Shown here in pieces: positions 4,932 through 18,281 of a stretch of 43,420 nucleotides of DNA. Numbering within the stretch: position 1 is the stretch's first letter; each line of letters begins with the position of its first letter. The stretch is taken from IMG/VR virus record IMGVR_UViG_3300048592_000523, positions 1 to 43,420 of that record; one strand, written 5' to 3'. Made by a program: the position numbers and the translations under genes. The DNA is from a virus. The notes beneath the pieces were generated by a model, which saw only the letters and a list, made by a program, of their open reading frames with translations, made no database searches and was not told the DNA's origin.

Positions 4932-5630
4932 ATGCTAAAATCTACATTCAAGCGCTTGTTGTCGCGCCTTGGTTTGACAAAAACAGCGATGTGCAAAATG
5001 GATTTTGATTTTCCATTTTTGAAGCACATAGAGATAAACACTGATTTGTTGGCGGTGATGATTGACCGCTGCGCAGATGCATCGTGTATCGGGGATTACG
5101 ATGACGATGATTATGCCAAGTTCAAGAACTTGCTTTTGCAAGAGCTTGTTTTAACGCTGGCTGATTTTCGCATGCATTGCTTTTATGGTGGATCGGGTAG
5201 CCCACACAAAGTCAGTGCGTGCACATGGGCAATAGGTGCGGACGGTGATGAAGACCAGCTTTTTGCAATCACATTGCCTTTTGAACTTTTGTTCAATTGG
5301 CGCATTGCGCTGGATTTTGATTGTGGCCCCTTGGGGCATGTTGGAAAAACATGCGACGAGGTTTGGAAAGGGAGTGCCAATGATGCCAGTGCTGTTGACG
5401 AGGTGCAGCAATCGATTAGCGCATTCAAGTCTGCAACTGGCGTTGACGAGTTGCGCAAGTATTTCAAGAAGCTTCTTAAGCGCAAGGCTGCAGAGTCAGC
5501 AGTAGCGCCACCACTGGCTGCTGCTGAATCTGAAACGAGTCAGCCGGGGCAACAACGCCTCGGCCACACACGCCAGCAACGGAGGAATCCACATGGCAAA
5601 AAAGACTGCTGTTCAATGGACTGTGCATGA
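4932..5630 (+). CDS. AT-richer hypothetical protein, probably recently acquired
   Basis: A 232-residue protein beginning MLKSTFKRLLSRLGLTKTAM. The start at ATG 4932 is preferred over ATG 4920 because GGAG (4922-4925) lies six bases before it. The body is visibly richer in A and T and in codons such as TTT, GAT and TTG than flanking genes, which suggests recent transfer. It contains an acidic DYDDDDYAKFK patch and two short hydrophobic strands; no motif is recognised. The final 30 or so residues are encoded by the leader of the next gene (hairpin 5543-5564, GGAGG 5581-5585) and the stop lies 38 nt inside that gene, so the C-terminus may be an extension produced by loss of an earlier stop. Confidence 0.6.
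   Translation: MLKSTFKRLLSRLGLTKTAMCKMDFDFPFLKHIEINTDLLAVMIDRCADASCIGDYDDDDYAKFKNLLLQELVLTLADFRMHCFYGGSGSPHKVSACTWAIGADGDEDQLFAITLPFELLFNWRIALDFDCGPLGHVGKTCDEVWKGSANDASAVDEVQQSISAFKSATGVDELRKYFKKLLKRKAAESAVAPPLAAAESETSQPGQQRLGHTRQQRRNPHGKKDCCSMDCA
5543..5564 (+). other. Leader-type hairpin inside the end of the 4932 gene
   Basis: GCCGGGGC (5543-5550) pairs with GCCTCGGC (5557-5564), with one G-U pair, around the loop AACAAC. The CGCCTCGGCCA segment resembles ACACCTCGGCCC at 4894-4905, and it sits 28 nt before the ATG at 5593, similar to the other leader hairpins in this region. Confidence 0.4.
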
Positions 5631-12231: not shown

Positions 12232-12318
12232 ATGTACGGGCCGCGTGAAAAGTTTGCCTGCTGCAAGTACGACGCTAAACGGCGCTGGTGGCGCGATAAA
12301 AAGATGGCAGGAGGTTGA
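12232..12318 (+). CDS. Tiny basic protein (28 aa), tentative
   Basis: ATG 12232 lies eight bases after GGGAG and its TGA (12316-12318) falls just before the polymerase TTG. The predicted product, with two adjacent Cys and KRRWWRDKK, is basic and aromatic. Its last codons contain the ribosome site of the polymerase gene (GGAGG 12310-12314), so translation of this frame could open that site. It could be a regulatory leader peptide or a chance frame. Confidence 0.35.
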   Translation: MYGPREKFACCKYDAKRRWWRDKKMAGG

Positions 12319-12320
12319 CT

Positions 12321-14882
12321 TTGGGATTCTACGAATACGACGAGAACCCGGTACAGGCCCCGACCAAAGTGAAGGGCCTATCGCTCGCGGCCCTGCACGC
12401 TGCCGGTTGCAGCCTGTGCCCGCTGGCCAAGAACAAAAAGGCGTGCAGCCCCGATATGAAGCCGAGCGGGGCAAAGCGCCCGCTCGTGTACATCCTTGGC
12501 GACCAGCCGTTGCGCGAGGATGACTTGGCTGACGAGCAAATGCGCGGCGACGCTGGCAAGTACCTGCGCAGGCTGATACCCGACGACTTTGACGATGCGA
12601 TCCGGTTCAACAATGCTGTGCGTACGCGCACGCCCAAGGACCGGGTGCCGGACCAAGTCGAAATCGAGTGCTGCAGGCCTAGCATCATCAAGGATATTGA
12701 AAGGCAGAAGCCGGTCGCAATCTTTGGCTTTGGCGCGTTGCCGCTGAAATGGGTAACGGACCAATCGCAAAGTCTGCCCAACTGGCGCGGCAAGCGCATG
12801 CCGGTAAAGATCGGCAGCCACACGTGCTGGTTTTACGTTTTCAACAGCCCTGCGGACATCATCGAGTCATGGCCCGAGTGGTACGAGCCGGGCAAAAGCA
12901 GCCGCAAGTGGGGCAGTGATATCGAGTTTGCGTTCCAACACGACCTGCGCACCGCGTTCAAGCAGGTGCGCAAAGGCCTGCCTAAGCCGGTGGTGCATTC
13001 GTTCGAGGATGCCGAGCGTGACGTGCGCTGGGTTACAGGCGCAAAGCCGGGCGACCTGCGCACGGTGCTGGATTGGTTTGATAAGTGCGAGGCTGCAGAC
13101 GCCTGCGGCTTTGACTACGAGACCAACGCGCTGCGGCCGTACCGTGATGGCAAGCTGTTGACGCTATCGCTTAGCATCGACGATGGCACGCTGGCATTCC
13201 CGCTCGACCACCGGCAAAGCCAATTCAGCAACGAGGACCGCGCCACCATACGCAAGCGGCTAAAGCGCTTCCTGTTGACGTCCAAGCACGTGCACAAGGC
13301 GGTGCACAACTTGGCGTTTGAACTGGAATGGTCGTGCGTCACCTTTAGCCGCGAGGTAGCGTTCACGCCAAAATGGGAATGCACGCAGTCGCAAAGCTTT
13401 GTGCTGGATACCCGGGCCTACGCACACTCGCTGGACTTCAAGTGCTATGAATACTTTGGCCTGCCCATCAAGGATATGACAACGACGCTGGACAAGAACA
13501 ACCTTGACGGCTGTGAGCTTGAGCAGGTGTTGCGTTACAACGGTGTCGACTCCAAGTACCACTTGCTGGTCTACCGCTACCAAGTGAAGCTGCTGCGCCA
13601 GCGCAAACTCGATTGGGTGTACGACGAGCACATGCGCCGCGTGCCTGCTGCAGTGCTAACGCAGGTGCAGGGCGTGCCGGTCGACCAAGCCACCGTCACC
13701 AAGTTTGATAAGCGGCTGCGCAAGGAATTGCGCGTGATCGAGGACAACATATTCAACGAGCCGGATACCGAGCGCTACGCCAAAAAGTTTGGCCACGAAT
13801 TCGAGCCGTCGAATCAGAACCATGTGAAGCGGTTGTTCAACGACCTGCTTAAGATGAACTTGGAAAAGACCGAGAAGCTTACGCTTGAAAAAGTAAAACA
13901 CCCGCTGGCAAAGCTGGTGCTGGAGCATCGCGGTGTTGCCAAGCTTAAGTCAACGTACGTGGACGTGCTGAAGCCCGAGTCGCCGCTGGTGTACCCGGAT
14001 GGCAAATTCCACGCGGTGATCGCCACCACCAAAGTGCGCACGTCTCGCACAAGCAGCGAAGACCCGAACGCGCAGAACTGGCCTAAGCGTGGTGCCAAGG
14101 TATTCATACGCGAGCAGGTGAAGGTTGATGATGACCACGTGATCGTGGCCATCGACTACGCGGGCATCCAAGGGCGCAATGTTGCAATGGAGTCGCTGGA
14201 CAAGCGGCTCACTGAATCGTTCTGGAATCACTACGACATCCACCACGACTGGCTTGAGCGGTTGATCCGGCGGTATCCCAAATTTCATAAGCTGACCAAA
14301 GAGCAGGACCCCAAGGAGTGGAAGGAAAAGCGGTCACTGGTGAAAAACCGTTTTGTGTTTCCTACCTTCTTTGGCGCGTACCCAAAGAAGCTGGCCACCG
14401 AGTTGCACGTGCCGCTTGATATTGGCGAAGGCCTGCGCGAGGAATTCTTTGGCGAGTTCCGTGACATTCACAAATGGCACGAGGTGCTAAAGGAAAATTT
14501 TGAACGCACTGGCTACGTCACAGGCCTTAGCGGTTATCGGCAGTACGCGCCCATCAGCCCCAACCAAATGATCAACAGCCCCATCCAAGCAGACGAATGC
14601 GTCATCGTGTGTGCTGCATGGGATTCGCTATCTCGCGAGCGTAACCGTTACCTGCAGCCGGTTATGATGATTCACGACGACCTGACTTTCATTTTTCCGC
14701 GCAAGCGGTTGGAGGAATACATCGACATCGCAGTCGACCACATGACGCGCATCAACTTCCCGTGGATCAACTGCCCGCTTGAGGTGGAGGTTAGCACCGG
14801 ACAAGATTGGGCCAACCTGAAGGAGATAGGCAAGTACGAGCGCGCACCGGGATGGAAATCATGGAAGCAAATCAGCGGTTGA
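12321..14882 (+). CDS. Family A DNA polymerase with N-terminal UDG-like domain
   Basis: An 853-residue replicative polymerase. TTG 12321 is chosen because GGAGG (12310-12314) is six bases before it. Residues 1-170 resemble family 4/5 uracil-DNA glycosylases: CSLC (C30, C33), GDQPLREDD, GDAGKYL, then ECCRPSI (C117/C118). One usual Fe-S cysteine is replaced (RTRTPKD instead of .CRPP.N) and the HPS motif reads NSP, so activity is doubtful. A DEDD exonuclease follows: D265-Y-E267, H329-N330...E334 (Glu where Asp is usual), and YNGVD with D410. The polymerase domain has motif A IDYAGIQ (D612), motif B KNRFVFPTFFGAY (from K675) and motif C HDDL (H785-D787). SPO1-type phages have a comparable fusion. 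The last 13 codons are duplicated downstream at 15281-15322 (see findings). Confidence 0.9.
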   Translation: MGFYEYDENPVQAPTKVKGLSLAALHAAGCSLCPLAKNKKACSPDMKPSGAKRPLVYILGDQPLREDDLADEQMRGDAGKYLRRLIPDDFDDAIRFNNAVRTRTPKDRVPDQVEIECCRPSIIKDIERQKPVAIFGFGALPLKWVTDQSQSLPNWRGKRMPVKIGSHTCWFYVFNSPADIIESWPEWYEPGKSSRKWGSDIEFAFQHDLRTAFKQVRKGLPKPVVHSFEDAERDVRWVTGAKPGDLRTVLDWFDKCEAADACGFDYETNALRPYRDGKLLTLSLSIDDGTLAFPLDHRQSQFSNEDRATIRKRLKRFLLTSKHVHKAVHNLAFELEWSCVTFSREVAFTPKWECTQSQSFVLDTRAYAHSLDFKCYEYFGLPIKDMTTTLDKNNLDGCELEQVLRYNGVDSKYHLLVYRYQVKLLRQRKLDWVYDEHMRRVPAAVLTQVQGVPVDQATVTKFDKRLRKELRVIEDNIFNEPDTERYAKKFGHEFEPSNQNHVKRLFNDLLKMNLEKTEKLTLEKVKHPLAKLVLEHRGVAKLKSTYVDVLKPESPLVYPDGKFHAVIATTKVRTSRTSSEDPNAQNWPKRGAKVFIREQVKVDDDHVIVAIDYAGIQGRNVAMESLDKRLTESFWNHYDIHHDWLERLIRRYPKFHKLTKEQDPKEWKEKRSLVKNRFVFPTFFGAYPKKLATELHVPLDIGEGLREEFFGEFRDIHKWHEVLKENFERTGYVTGLSGYRQYAPISPNQMINSPIQADECVIVCAAWDSLSRERNRYLQPVMMIHDDLTFIFPRKRLEEYIDIAVDHMTRINFPWINCPLEVEVSTGQDWANLKEIGKYERAPGWKSWKQISG
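14844..14857 (+). repeat. 14-bp direct repeat, left copy (polymerase 3' end)
   Basis: GCACCGGGATGGAA, identical at 15284-15297, exactly 440 bp away. It encodes APGWK in the polymerase frame and the first codons of the inserted homing-type gene in the other frame. Confidence 0.9.
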
Positions 14883-15277
14883 AAACTGCGTACCACCAGC
14901 AAGTGTGGCGGGCTAAGAATCGTGGCATCAAGATGCTATTCACTTTTGATGAGTGGCTGGCATTTTGGAAAGCATCTGGCAAGCTGCACTTGCGCGGGCT
15001 TGGGCGTGGCAAGTATGTCATGGCGCGCAATGGTGACCGTGGCCCGTATGCGCCCGACAACGTTCGTATCATCTTGTTTGAAGACAACATGAAGGAAAAG
15101 CGCCTTACAAAAGCGATGCGCAATCGAATACGGGTGGCACGCTTAGGCACTAAAGCCAGCGCGGCTACTCGTGCAAAGATGAGTCAATCACACACCGGGC
15201 GTGTTAAGACCAAGGCACACCGGCAGGCGTTATCAAAGTCACTAAAGCGATCATGGCAGGAAAGGGCAGCGCAGTGA
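14852..15277 (+). CDS. Homing-endonuclease-like protein with NUMOD3 repeats
   Basis: A 141-residue protein from ATG 14852 (ATG 14861 is an alternative), overlapping the polymerase stop. The middle reads FTFDEWLAFWKASGKLHLRG, GRGKYVMARNGDRGPYAPDN and VRIILFEDN, a pattern known to me from free-standing phage HNH-type genes (W...GK...RG.G.Y.M.R..D.G.Y...NV.I....N). The C-terminal half has LGTKASAATRAKMSQSHTGR then AHRQALSKSLKRSW, NUMOD3-type DNA-binding repeats. A complete HNH core is not visible, so it may be a DNA-binding remnant or use a different nuclease core. Codon use is AT-richer than in the neighbours. It separates polymerase from clamp loader, and the junction is duplicated on both sides. 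Confidence 0.75.
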   Translation: MEIMEANQRLKTAYHQQVWRAKNRGIKMLFTFDEWLAFWKASGKLHLRGLGRGKYVMARNGDRGPYAPDNVRIILFEDNMKEKRLTKAMRNRIRVARLGTKASAATRAKMSQSHTGRVKTKAHRQALSKSLKRSWQERAAQ

Positions 15278-16245
15278 AAAAGGGCACCGGGATGGAAGGC
15301 GTGCAAGCGGATAAGCGGGTAGCGCCGCTGCATTTGAAATACAGGCCCAAGACCTTCGAGGAGGTGGTGGGCCACGGCGCAGCGGTGAAGGCGTTCAAAC
15401 GTTCGCTCGCTGACTCGCAAGCGTTCCTGCTGACCGGGCCTGCAGGCACCGGCAAGACTACGCTGGCGCGCATTGGCTGCAGCCACCTTGGCATCACGGA
15501 CGATGCAATCATCGAGATCGATGCAGCCAGCAACAATGGTATCGACCACATGCGTGCGCTGCAAAGCGTGATCCTGTACAAGCCCATCGGTGGCGACCGG
15601 CGCGGTGTGGTGATCGACGAGGCACACGGCTTGTCCAAGCAAGCATGGGACTCGCTGTTGAAAGTGGTGGAGGAGCCGCCGCACCACTTGGTTTGGTTTT
15701 TCTGCACCACCAACGCAAGCAAGGTGCCGACCACCATCAAGACCCGGTGCACACCTGTGCCGCTGCAGCCCATAGGCACGCAGCAGTTGGAGGACCTGCT
15801 GGACGAGGTGGCAGCCGAGGAGGGTATTGAACTGCCGCAGGGCGTGGCCAGCCTGTGCGTGCGGGAAGCCAACGGCAGCGCCCGGCAATTGCTCGTCAAC
15901 TTGGCCACGGTGCGCGGTGTCAAAAACCGCGAGGCTGCGGCCCGGCTGCTGCGGTCGGCTGTTGATAGCGACCCGGTGATTGCCCTATGCCGGTCGCTGG
16001 TGCAGGGCACCACGTTCATCAAGGCCAAGGCACTGGTTGCCGAATGTGATGGCCAGACACCGGAGGGCATCCGCCGTGTTGTAAACGGCTACATGGCAAG
16101 CGTGATGAAAGGCACAAACAACGAAAAGGCAGCCGGGCGGCTGCTGGACATCATGGATGCCTTTGAGCGGCCGTTCTACGACGACGATTCAATGGCACCG
16201 CTGTATTTGGCGCTTGGCAAGGTGCTGCTGCCCCCGGGCAAGTAG
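15274..16245 (+). CDS. Clamp loader ATPase (DnaX/RFC-like)
   Basis: A 323-residue AAA+ protein. It begins the core with LHLKYRPKTFEEVVGH, the DnaX/RFC entry motif, then Walker A GPAGTGKTT, Walker B VVIDEAH, sensor 1 CTTNASKVPTTIKTRC with the TRC arginine finger (SRC in RFC), and sensor 2 NGSARQLL. The C-terminal third is the helical collar. It lacks the DnaX zinc-binding cysteines, which makes it closer to a single-subunit phage loader such as T4 gp44. It should load the clamp encoded at 11129. Start choice is uncertain: GTG 15274 (GTGA overlap, AGGAAAGG upstream) is given, ATG 15253 is possible, and ATG 15292 is the probable ancestral start because it sits in the duplicated junction. Confidence 0.87.
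   Translation: MKKGTGMEGVQADKRVAPLHLKYRPKTFEEVVGHGAAVKAFKRSLADSQAFLLTGPAGTGKTTLARIGCSHLGITDDAIIEIDAASNNGIDHMRALQSVILYKPIGGDRRGVVIDEAHGLSKQAWDSLLKVVEEPPHHLVWFFCTTNASKVPTTIKTRCTPVPLQPIGTQQLEDLLDEVAAEEGIELPQGVASLCVREANGSARQLLVNLATVRGVKNREAAARLLRSAVDSDPVIALCRSLVQGTTFIKAKALVAECDGQTPEGIRRVVNGYMASVMKGTNNEKAAGRLLDIMDAFERPFYDDDSMAPLYLALGKVLLPPGK
15284..15297 (+). repeat. 14-bp direct repeat, right copy (clamp loader 5' end)
   Basis: GCACCGGGATGGAA again. In the polymerase frame the sequence continues as APGWKACKRISG-stop (stop TAG 15320-15322), a near copy of the present polymerase end. In the clamp loader frame ATG 15292 is the likely original start. Confidence 0.9.
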
Positions 16246-17024: not shown

Positions 17025-18281
17025 ATGGCTAGGACTAGGGACCGTGATGATGATAGGGGCAGCCGCCGCAGCGGTCGCTCCTCGTACGAGGAAAACTTGG
17101 ACAAGAACGTCCGCAGGCGTGGCGAGCAAACCGGTGGCAGCTTCGATTCCTTTTTCAAGGAAGGCGTCACCCGGTACAGCCCGCCGCGTGGTGATAACGC
17201 GGTGCGCTTCCTGCCGCCAACATGGGAAGATGCCGAGCACTATGGGCACGACATTTGGGTGCACTACGGCATCGGCGCAGACAAAGGCTCATACCTTTGC
17301 CTGAAAAAGATGAAGGACAAGCCGTGCCCCATCTGCGATGCCGCCAACGAGATGAAAGCCGAGGGCGGCAAGGAAGCTGAAGCGGGCAAGCGCATCAGTG
17401 CCAAGCAGCGCGTGCTTACGTACGTGATCGACCGCAACGAGCGCAGGCCCAAGCTTGCCGTGTGGGCCATGCCGTGGACTGTTGACAAGGACGTGTCCCT
17501 CGCCAGCCAAAACAAAAAGACCGGCGAGGTGTTGAACATTGTCAACGCCAAGAAGGGGTACGATGTTTTCTTCCGGCTCGAAGGCCAGAAGCTAAACACC
17601 AAGTATAGCGGCGTAAGCATCGACCGCGACCCAAGCCCGTTGTCGGATGACAAACGCGAGGCCGAGGAATGGCTCGCTGAAGCCGAGGAGCGGCCGTTGC
17701 CCAAGCTGCTCAAGTTCTACGATGCCGACTACCTGCAAGAGGTGGTGGATGGCCACTCGGCTGCCAGCACCGATGACGATGATGATGATGACGCGCCGCG
17801 CAGCAAGCGCAAGCGGCGTGACTCGGATGATGATGATGACGAGGAGGACGAGGGGCCGCGCAACCGGCGCAGCAGCCGTAACTCGGATGACGATGATGAC
17901 GACGGACCTGCACCGCGCAGGCGCGGCCGTGATCGGGATTCCGATGACGACGACGAGGAGGACGCACCGCGCGGCAAGCGCAAGCGCCCTGCTGATGACG
18001 ATGACGATGACGAGCCTGCGCCGCGCAAGCGCAAGCGCGCATCGGATGATGACGACGACGAGGATGATGCGCCGAGTCGTAAGAAGCGCAAGCGCAGTGA
18101 TGACGAGGACGAGGCGGACCCGGCTGATGACGATGACGACGCGGACGACCGGCCGCGTAAGAAGCGCAGCCGTTCCTCGGATGAAGACGATGACGAGGAC
18201 GAGCGTCCCCGCAAGCGTGCGCGCGATTCCGACGACGATGATGATGACGACGAGCCTGCACCGCGCAGGCGCAGGCGTTAA
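17025..18281 (+). CDS. ssDNA-binding protein (gp32-like) with long charged repeat tail
   Basis: A 418-residue protein. Residues 40-240 follow the gp32-type layout: KEGVTRYSPPRGDNAVRFLP, WEDAEHYGHDIWVHYGIG, then C92 and C101-P-I-C104 with nearby His residues forming a probable zinc site, and beta strands of an OB fold. From about residue 246 to the end it consists only of alternating Asp/Glu runs and basic PR.KRKR modules, for example DEPAPRKRKR. Typical SSBs end in a short acidic tip; an alternation of acidic and basic blocks over about 170 residues is unusual. The tail would contact partners such as helicase, primase or recombinase. The gene sits between the helical 16280 protein and the RecA-like gene. 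Confidence 0.8.
   Translation: MARTRDRDDDRGSRRSGRSSYEENLDKNVRRRGEQTGGSFDSFFKEGVTRYSPPRGDNAVRFLPPTWEDAEHYGHDIWVHYGIGADKGSYLCLKKMKDKPCPICDAANEMKAEGGKEAEAGKRISAKQRVLTYVIDRNERRPKLAVWAMPWTVDKDVSLASQNKKTGEVLNIVNAKKGYDVFFRLEGQKLNTKYSGVSIDRDPSPLSDDKREAEEWLAEAEERPLPKLLKFYDADYLQEVVDGHSAASTDDDDDDDAPRSKRKRRDSDDDDDEEDEGPRNRRSSRNSDDDDDDGPAPRRRGRDRDSDDDDEEDAPRGKRKRPADDDDDDEPAPRKRKRASDDDDDEDDAPSRKKRKRSDDEDEADPADDDDDADDRPRKKRSRSSDEDDDEDERPRKRARDSDDDDDDDEPAPRRRRR

Follow-up and report, generated by a model that had tools for sequence, protein, structure and literature searches.

Free-standing homing genes are usually described from intergenic gaps. In mitochondria, mobile open reading frames (ORFs) carry a foreign C-terminus that displaces the native one, as in Allomyces atp6 and in Glomus atp6, atp9, cox2, and nad3 (PMC3630166). 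In phage T4, homing genes overlap the upstream ORF by 11-24 bp (20 bp for segC, 23 bp for mobA, and 24 bp for mobC), and the review that reports these overlaps uses no word that starts with "duplicat" (PMC2988022). Coding sequence can also be invaded by an HNH hidden out of frame within a methylase gene (PMC11855218). The subject of this work is a small homing-type endonuclease gene in an uncultured phage, viral record IMGVR_UViG_3300048592_000523, of which positions 1 to 43,420 were analyzed (43,420 nt, hereafter the window). The gene lies between those of a DNA polymerase and a clamp loader, and a version of the junction between these two genes is found on either side of it. Based on this one genome, it is quite probably a free-standing homing-type endonuclease gene that sits in a former polymerase/clamp-loader overlap, with the overlap now present twice. 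The features of the locus are the following.

12315..14882, + strand: DNA polymerase, family A, with a uracil-DNA-glycosylase (UDG)-like N-terminal domain (predicted start); ends in the left junction copy
14844..14882, + strand: left junction copy; polymerase tail APGWKSWKQISG-stop, with the nuclease start MEIMEANQRL in the other frame; 29 of 39 bases match 15284-15322
14852..15277, + strand: homing-type endonuclease gene, 141 amino acids, phrog_16521; an alternative start, TTG 14879, overlaps the polymerase stop
15278..15291, + strand: AAAAGGG... leader directly after the nuclease stop; AAGGG (15280-15284) may serve the clamp loader as a ribosome-binding-like stretch, as judged from sequence
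15284..15322, + strand: right junction copy; reads APGWKACKRISG-stop as a vestigial polymerase tail and, in another frame, holds the clamp-loader start MEGVQADKRVA
15292..16245, + strand: clamp loader, DNA polymerase III gamma/tau-like ATPase; phrog_5846 (1.6e-65), Pfam DNA_pol3_delta2 (2.7e-19)

The polymerase ORF closes with APGWKSWKQISG-stop, and the corresponding register on the far side of the nuclease gene is APGWKACKRISG-stop. The first 14 bases of the two copies are identical, and the right copy is polymerase-like one codon further upstream (K-R-APGWK vs E-R-APGWK). Both copies have an ATG at offset 8, which is that of the nuclease gene on the left (14852) and that of the clamp loader on the right (15292), and they are alike both as polymerase tails and as gene starts (MEIMEANQRLK and MEGVQADKRVA). 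The nuclease stop (TGA, 15275-15277) abuts the AAAAGGG stretch 5' of the clamp-loader ATG, and the right copy comes next. The ungapped +1/-1 score of the copies is 21, compared to a mean of 8.4, a standard deviation of 1.4, and a maximum of 16 for 400 random pairs drawn from the window. With three repetitive genes set aside (about 9.6-10.7, 17.6-18.4, and 35-36.4 kb), no other pair at 29/39 and a spacing of 100-1500 bp was found among the windows listed (60 of 93). In 47 related loci that have genes between the polymerase and the clamp loader, the junction-to-junction score reached 12 at most. A repeat that is far above chance, in gene-start register, and unseen at 47 comparable junctions supports an insertion with a duplicated overlap, and this insertion is real. 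The original prediction had described two junction copies in polymerase register with these match counts, the right one over the clamp-loader ATG and the nuclease ATG in the same register, and an AT-richer left copy resembling the nuclease gene; the scores, the shared offset, and the GC content of the copies (0.51 on the left and 0.64 on the right) bear this out.

In the proposed explanation, the left copy both completes the polymerase and gives the nuclease its start codon and first ~10 codons, so that the translation of the two genes would overlap. The clamp-loader start comes from the right copy, which still spells the old polymerase tail, now untranslated in that frame. This vestigial tail would persist because its bases also code for the N-terminus of the clamp loader. 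The nuclease gene would home by cutting DNA that is then repaired from the donor copy, one junction copy may have arrived with the donor, and the copies may differ because the donor and recipient phages were diverged.

In the distant relatives L002 (ATGA), L003, and L030, the polymerase overlaps or abuts the clamp loader directly, and this is a normal state in distant relatives. The junction of relatives is also often filled by unrelated small genes, and their polymerase tails do not align past the conserved GxDW...GKF block. Two near-identical phages differ at this position, where L021 is empty (about 5440) and L022 has a gene of 55 amino acids (5437-5610) flanked by a 6-7 bp repeat (TGAGCG) that preserves the stop/start overlap. 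This pair indicates that an insertion must duplicate the overlap for both genes to stay intact, so a long overlap would give a long duplication.

The same arrangement is found beside empty alleles in other phages. At the nrdD/nrdG junction of T4-like phages, the empty phage T2 (L183) has the nrdG start MNYDRFYPCDFVN-GPGCR. In Escherichia phage F25 (L185, 463-1302), an HNH-like homing nuclease gene starts MNYDRFYPCDFVN-DKLALI, with 40 nt identical to T2 nrdG, and nrdG restarts downstream of it as MNYDRIYPCCFVNGPG, at 30/39 to T2. The empty Klebsiella phage KP1 (L187) has the nrdG start MNFDRIYPSDFVN-GPGCR, and the related nuclease of Klebsiella phage SmallBear (L186, 658-1494) starts MNFDRIYPSDFVN-DKLSSI, with 40 nt identical to the KP1 start. 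The SmallBear nrdG also restarts as MNYDRIYPCCFVNGPG, and the right copies of F25 and SmallBear are 29-30/39. In both pairs the N-terminus of the nuclease is thus identical to the resident start of the empty relative, though these parallel cases amount to a few record pairs, with the 40-nt identity established for F25/T2 and SmallBear/KP1. Between filled and empty alleles, the left flanks are nearly identical, and on the right about 100-150 nt differ before near-identity returns, with one further diverged patch beyond this in F25/T2. The stop codon of the F25 and SmallBear nucleases falls within the replacement nrdG start. It follows from the flank pattern that the nuclease inserted itself behind codon 13 of nrdG, made the resident start its own, and carried in a substitute 5' end. 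As read from these sequences, this happened twice, independently, in two genera. In INPHARED, 30 records cover at least 80% of the nrdG nuclease, and those with annotated neighbors sit at nrdD/nrdG. The statement of the original prediction that a duplicated junction is "not a standard phage picture" therefore needs softening, as about 30 phage records have the nrdG version.

Other nucleases are found at the same site. T4 mobC (L180, 42906-43538) lies at nrdD/nrdG, and its first 24 nt match nrdG at 21 positions, ATG to ATG. This start likeness may be microhomology, as mobC begins MNYDRIY and mobE, located elsewhere, begins MNYQKIY. RB7 has a gene annotated segD at nrdD/nrdG. Together with the F25-type nuclease and mobC, this indicates that nrdD/nrdG has been invaded by at least three nucleases. 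Among seven T4 genes tested, the start repeat was found in mobC only and in none of segA, segC, segF, mobA, mobB, and mobE, and no junction repeat was found for HNH genes near or overlapping their neighbors in KpV52, SBP, ORH_001, and JWAlpha.

A further case is Dinoroseobacter phage R5C (KY606587; L008, 5296-6909), in which an HNH_3/AP2-like gene follows a small ORF and precedes the clamp loader. In the empty alleles of Pan1 (L007) and R26L (L094), the small ORF end DWRNLAH-stop overlaps the clamp-loader start MTGxTLHTK. The left junction of R5C has DWRNLAH-stop with the HNH gene start MTGEISLT, and the right junction has the clamp-loader start VSETLHTK, where the old frame reads ERNTAH-stop. 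The NLAH of the left tail is identical in amino acids to the empty alleles and synonymously diverged, at 14/18 to Pan1, and the right copy is at 16/18.

These cases bear on which copy in the window is native. The polarity is undecidable from the base composition or codon usage of 39 nt. Where empty alleles exist, the T4-like phages have the resident copy on the left and the imported one on the right, whereas the right copy of R5C is the more native-looking of the two; in the mitochondrial precedent, too, the resident copy lies on the right. For the window, import of the right copy, which is the T4-like polarity, is favored slightly, and import of the left copy would be only just short of an even chance. 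The original prediction held the latter polarity, one of the two inside the explanation preferred here, in which the element brought a foreign polymerase tail (left copy) that displaced the native tail (right copy). Taken as a model of its own, this is a plausible contender that we rate somewhat below even. It agrees with the AT-richer left copy and with the lean of R5C, and it has a precedent in the mitochondrial endonuclease genes (PMC3630166), a comparison that was aptly drawn. However, the polarity is the opposite in the phage cases that are best resolved, where near-isogenic empty alleles exist, and the two tails fit the codon usage equally well (-0.07 and -0.05). The claim that the right copy is the original polymerase tail was left unsupported, as no empty or close relative was found, the composition and codon usage of 39 nt are not decisive, and the proposed search for an uninterrupted junction, made with a degenerate pattern covering both tails, gave no match. 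From the predicted invasion of the junction, what stands is a homing-type gene in the overlap, the duplication, and the vestigial right tail; the imported left tail is left unsupported.

A local duplication is unlikely. The overlap would have been copied in place at insertion, by a staggered cut or replication slippage, and the copies would have diverged later with no donor tail. The 6-7 bp repeat in L021/L022 suggests that a minimal local duplication is enough for a short overlap. However, the 26% divergence of the copies in the window would need long residence, and the diverged nrdG sequence on the right in the T4-like phages extends well past the repeat, which makes it donor DNA rather than a local copy. 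Microhomology, in which the own start of the nuclease resembled the clamp-loader start and was joined there, so that the left copy is nuclease-born, is quite improbable. The nrdG-like start of T4 mobC could be read in this way, and mobE, located elsewhere, has a similar start as well. In the window, however, the similarity runs through the polymerase frame before and after the ATG as far as the stop codon, and the nuclease family does not have a conserved N-terminus of this kind. Chance similarity, for which the length of only 39 nt might speak, is dismissed by the score of 21 against a null maximum of 16 and by start and stop codons in exact register.

The inserted nuclease matches phrog_16521, a family of unknown function, at 1.5e-24 over residues 9-116. 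It belongs to this family by the conserved columns W..W..G..RG.Y.M.R..D.G.Y..N, which are invariant in the 33-member alignment. There are weak matches to homing-endonuclease PHROGs and a sub-threshold NUMOD3 in Pfam. The AlphaFold model of the nuclease family (33 members) has a pLDDT of 92, and its first Foldseek match in the Protein Data Bank (PDB) is PacI (HNH, 3ldy; prob 0.96, TM 0.42, E 0.07). By sequence, the nuclease has no match in the PDB, and Pfam gave no LAGLIDADG or GIY-YIG match. The inserted nuclease is likely a putative PacI-like HNH enzyme, as suggested by the model. Its gene has a GC3 (GC content at third codon positions) of 0.58, compared to 0.75-0.78 in its neighbors, which is in keeping with a foreign origin. 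The window nuclease has about 10 more residues before the conserved Y..Q motif than many relatives, and these correspond to the junction-coded stretch. In IMG/VR, relatives are encoded by 295 stretches found in a scan, and in T4-like phages several relatives are located in tRNA clusters. Repeats at the tRNA-flanked relatives L086, L088, L091, and L101 are shared tRNA arm sequence and were rejected as junction copies.

Several points weigh against an inserted homing gene with a duplicated overlap. The nuclease class is putative, with no Pfam HNH match at E<1 and the PacI match at a Foldseek E of 0.07. Within the nuclease family, the repeat is seen only at the window copy (1 of about 89 loci), and junction duplication is thus not a property of the family. 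Searches of IMG/VR, GTDB contigs, and INPHARED turned up neither an empty allele nor a close relative of this phage, and the ancestral junction can for this reason only be inferred. No polymerase relative above 46% identity was found in IMG/VR by protein scans with the polymerase, clamp loader, and nuclease or with an alignment profile. No close relative was found in GTDB contigs and no nucleotide match in INPHARED, and the records nearest to that of the window may lie outside these searches.

The polymerase matches DNA_pol_A (2e-42), UDG (2e-7), and DNA_pol_A_exo1 (2e-6) in Pfam, as well as phrog_17 (1e-88). The UDG-like domain is at 12315-12900, and a similar N-terminus is apparent in L001-L003. 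For the clamp loader, a longer ORF from ATG 15253 is possible; the N-termini of relatives start close to L-H-x-K-Y-R-P. The clamp-loader frame of L003 seems to enter an intein- or hedgehog-like segment, DECFAPDTLVNTPTGLVTIKDIRVGDFVIGL, at about 5780, just past the Walker B region. The single-strand binding protein encoded further downstream in the window (17025-18281, phrog_1192) has a very long tail of repeated acidic and basic residues (DDDDD...RRK repeats).

The locus shows a homing-type gene housed where essential genes overlap without a gap, by way of a duplicated or exchanged overlap. It is an even question whether phage homing genes more generally enter overlapping essential genes as "end-exchange" elements, using the resident start, or a tail that they donate, for their own first codons and giving the invaded gene a new end. 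If so, tightly packed operons without intergenic space could be invaded without loss, and repeated invasion would leave the ends of polymerase, clamp-loader, and reductase genes mosaic. Counting the window, there would then be at least three separate cases, with nucleases that are unrelated. The idea predicts recombinant ends in phage replication genes that adjoin such nucleases, and laboratory phages offer a test of it in the T4-like pairs T2/F25 and KP1/SmallBear. In the open-access literature, no report was found of a phage homing gene taking over and replacing the start of a downstream gene, with subscription journals outside the search. Start capture is not described in the passages found of a phage nuclease gene survey (PMC10448857) or of a Skunavirus HNH study (PMC12724721).

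Compared to known systems, the locus resembles the free-standing HNH and GIY-YIG genes of T4-like phages (seg, mob) as a small nuclease gene between essential replication genes, where such genes often overlap the upstream ORF. With the F25 and SmallBear nucleases it shares a position between two overlapping genes and a second, diverged copy of the nuclease start at the start of the downstream gene. The likeness of MEIMEANQRLK to MEGVQADKRVA resembles an nrdG-type start capture, in which the nuclease of the window would likewise have taken its start from the downstream gene. In contrast, the F25 and SmallBear insertions lie inside nrdG at codon 13, the upstream overlap is 4 nt, the upstream tail is unduplicated, and the nucleases are unrelated in sequence to that of the window. 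R5C has the same downstream gene, the clamp loader, with an overlap of about 25 nt duplicated on either side, but its nuclease is HNH_3 plus AP2-like, and its upstream gene is a small ORF where the window has the polymerase. In the mitochondrial elements, an endonuclease ORF lies at the 3' end of a host gene, and that end is present on both sides, diverged, with one copy vestigial. The window likewise has an endonuclease ORF at a gene end, with the end of the host gene duplicated around it. The mitochondrial nucleases are LAGLIDADG or GIY-YIG, unlike that of the window, and the native mitochondrial tail is usually debris, whereas the vestigial tail in the window also serves an essential downstream gene as its start. 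By this comparison, the mitochondrial element with a carried C-terminus is the closest precedent.

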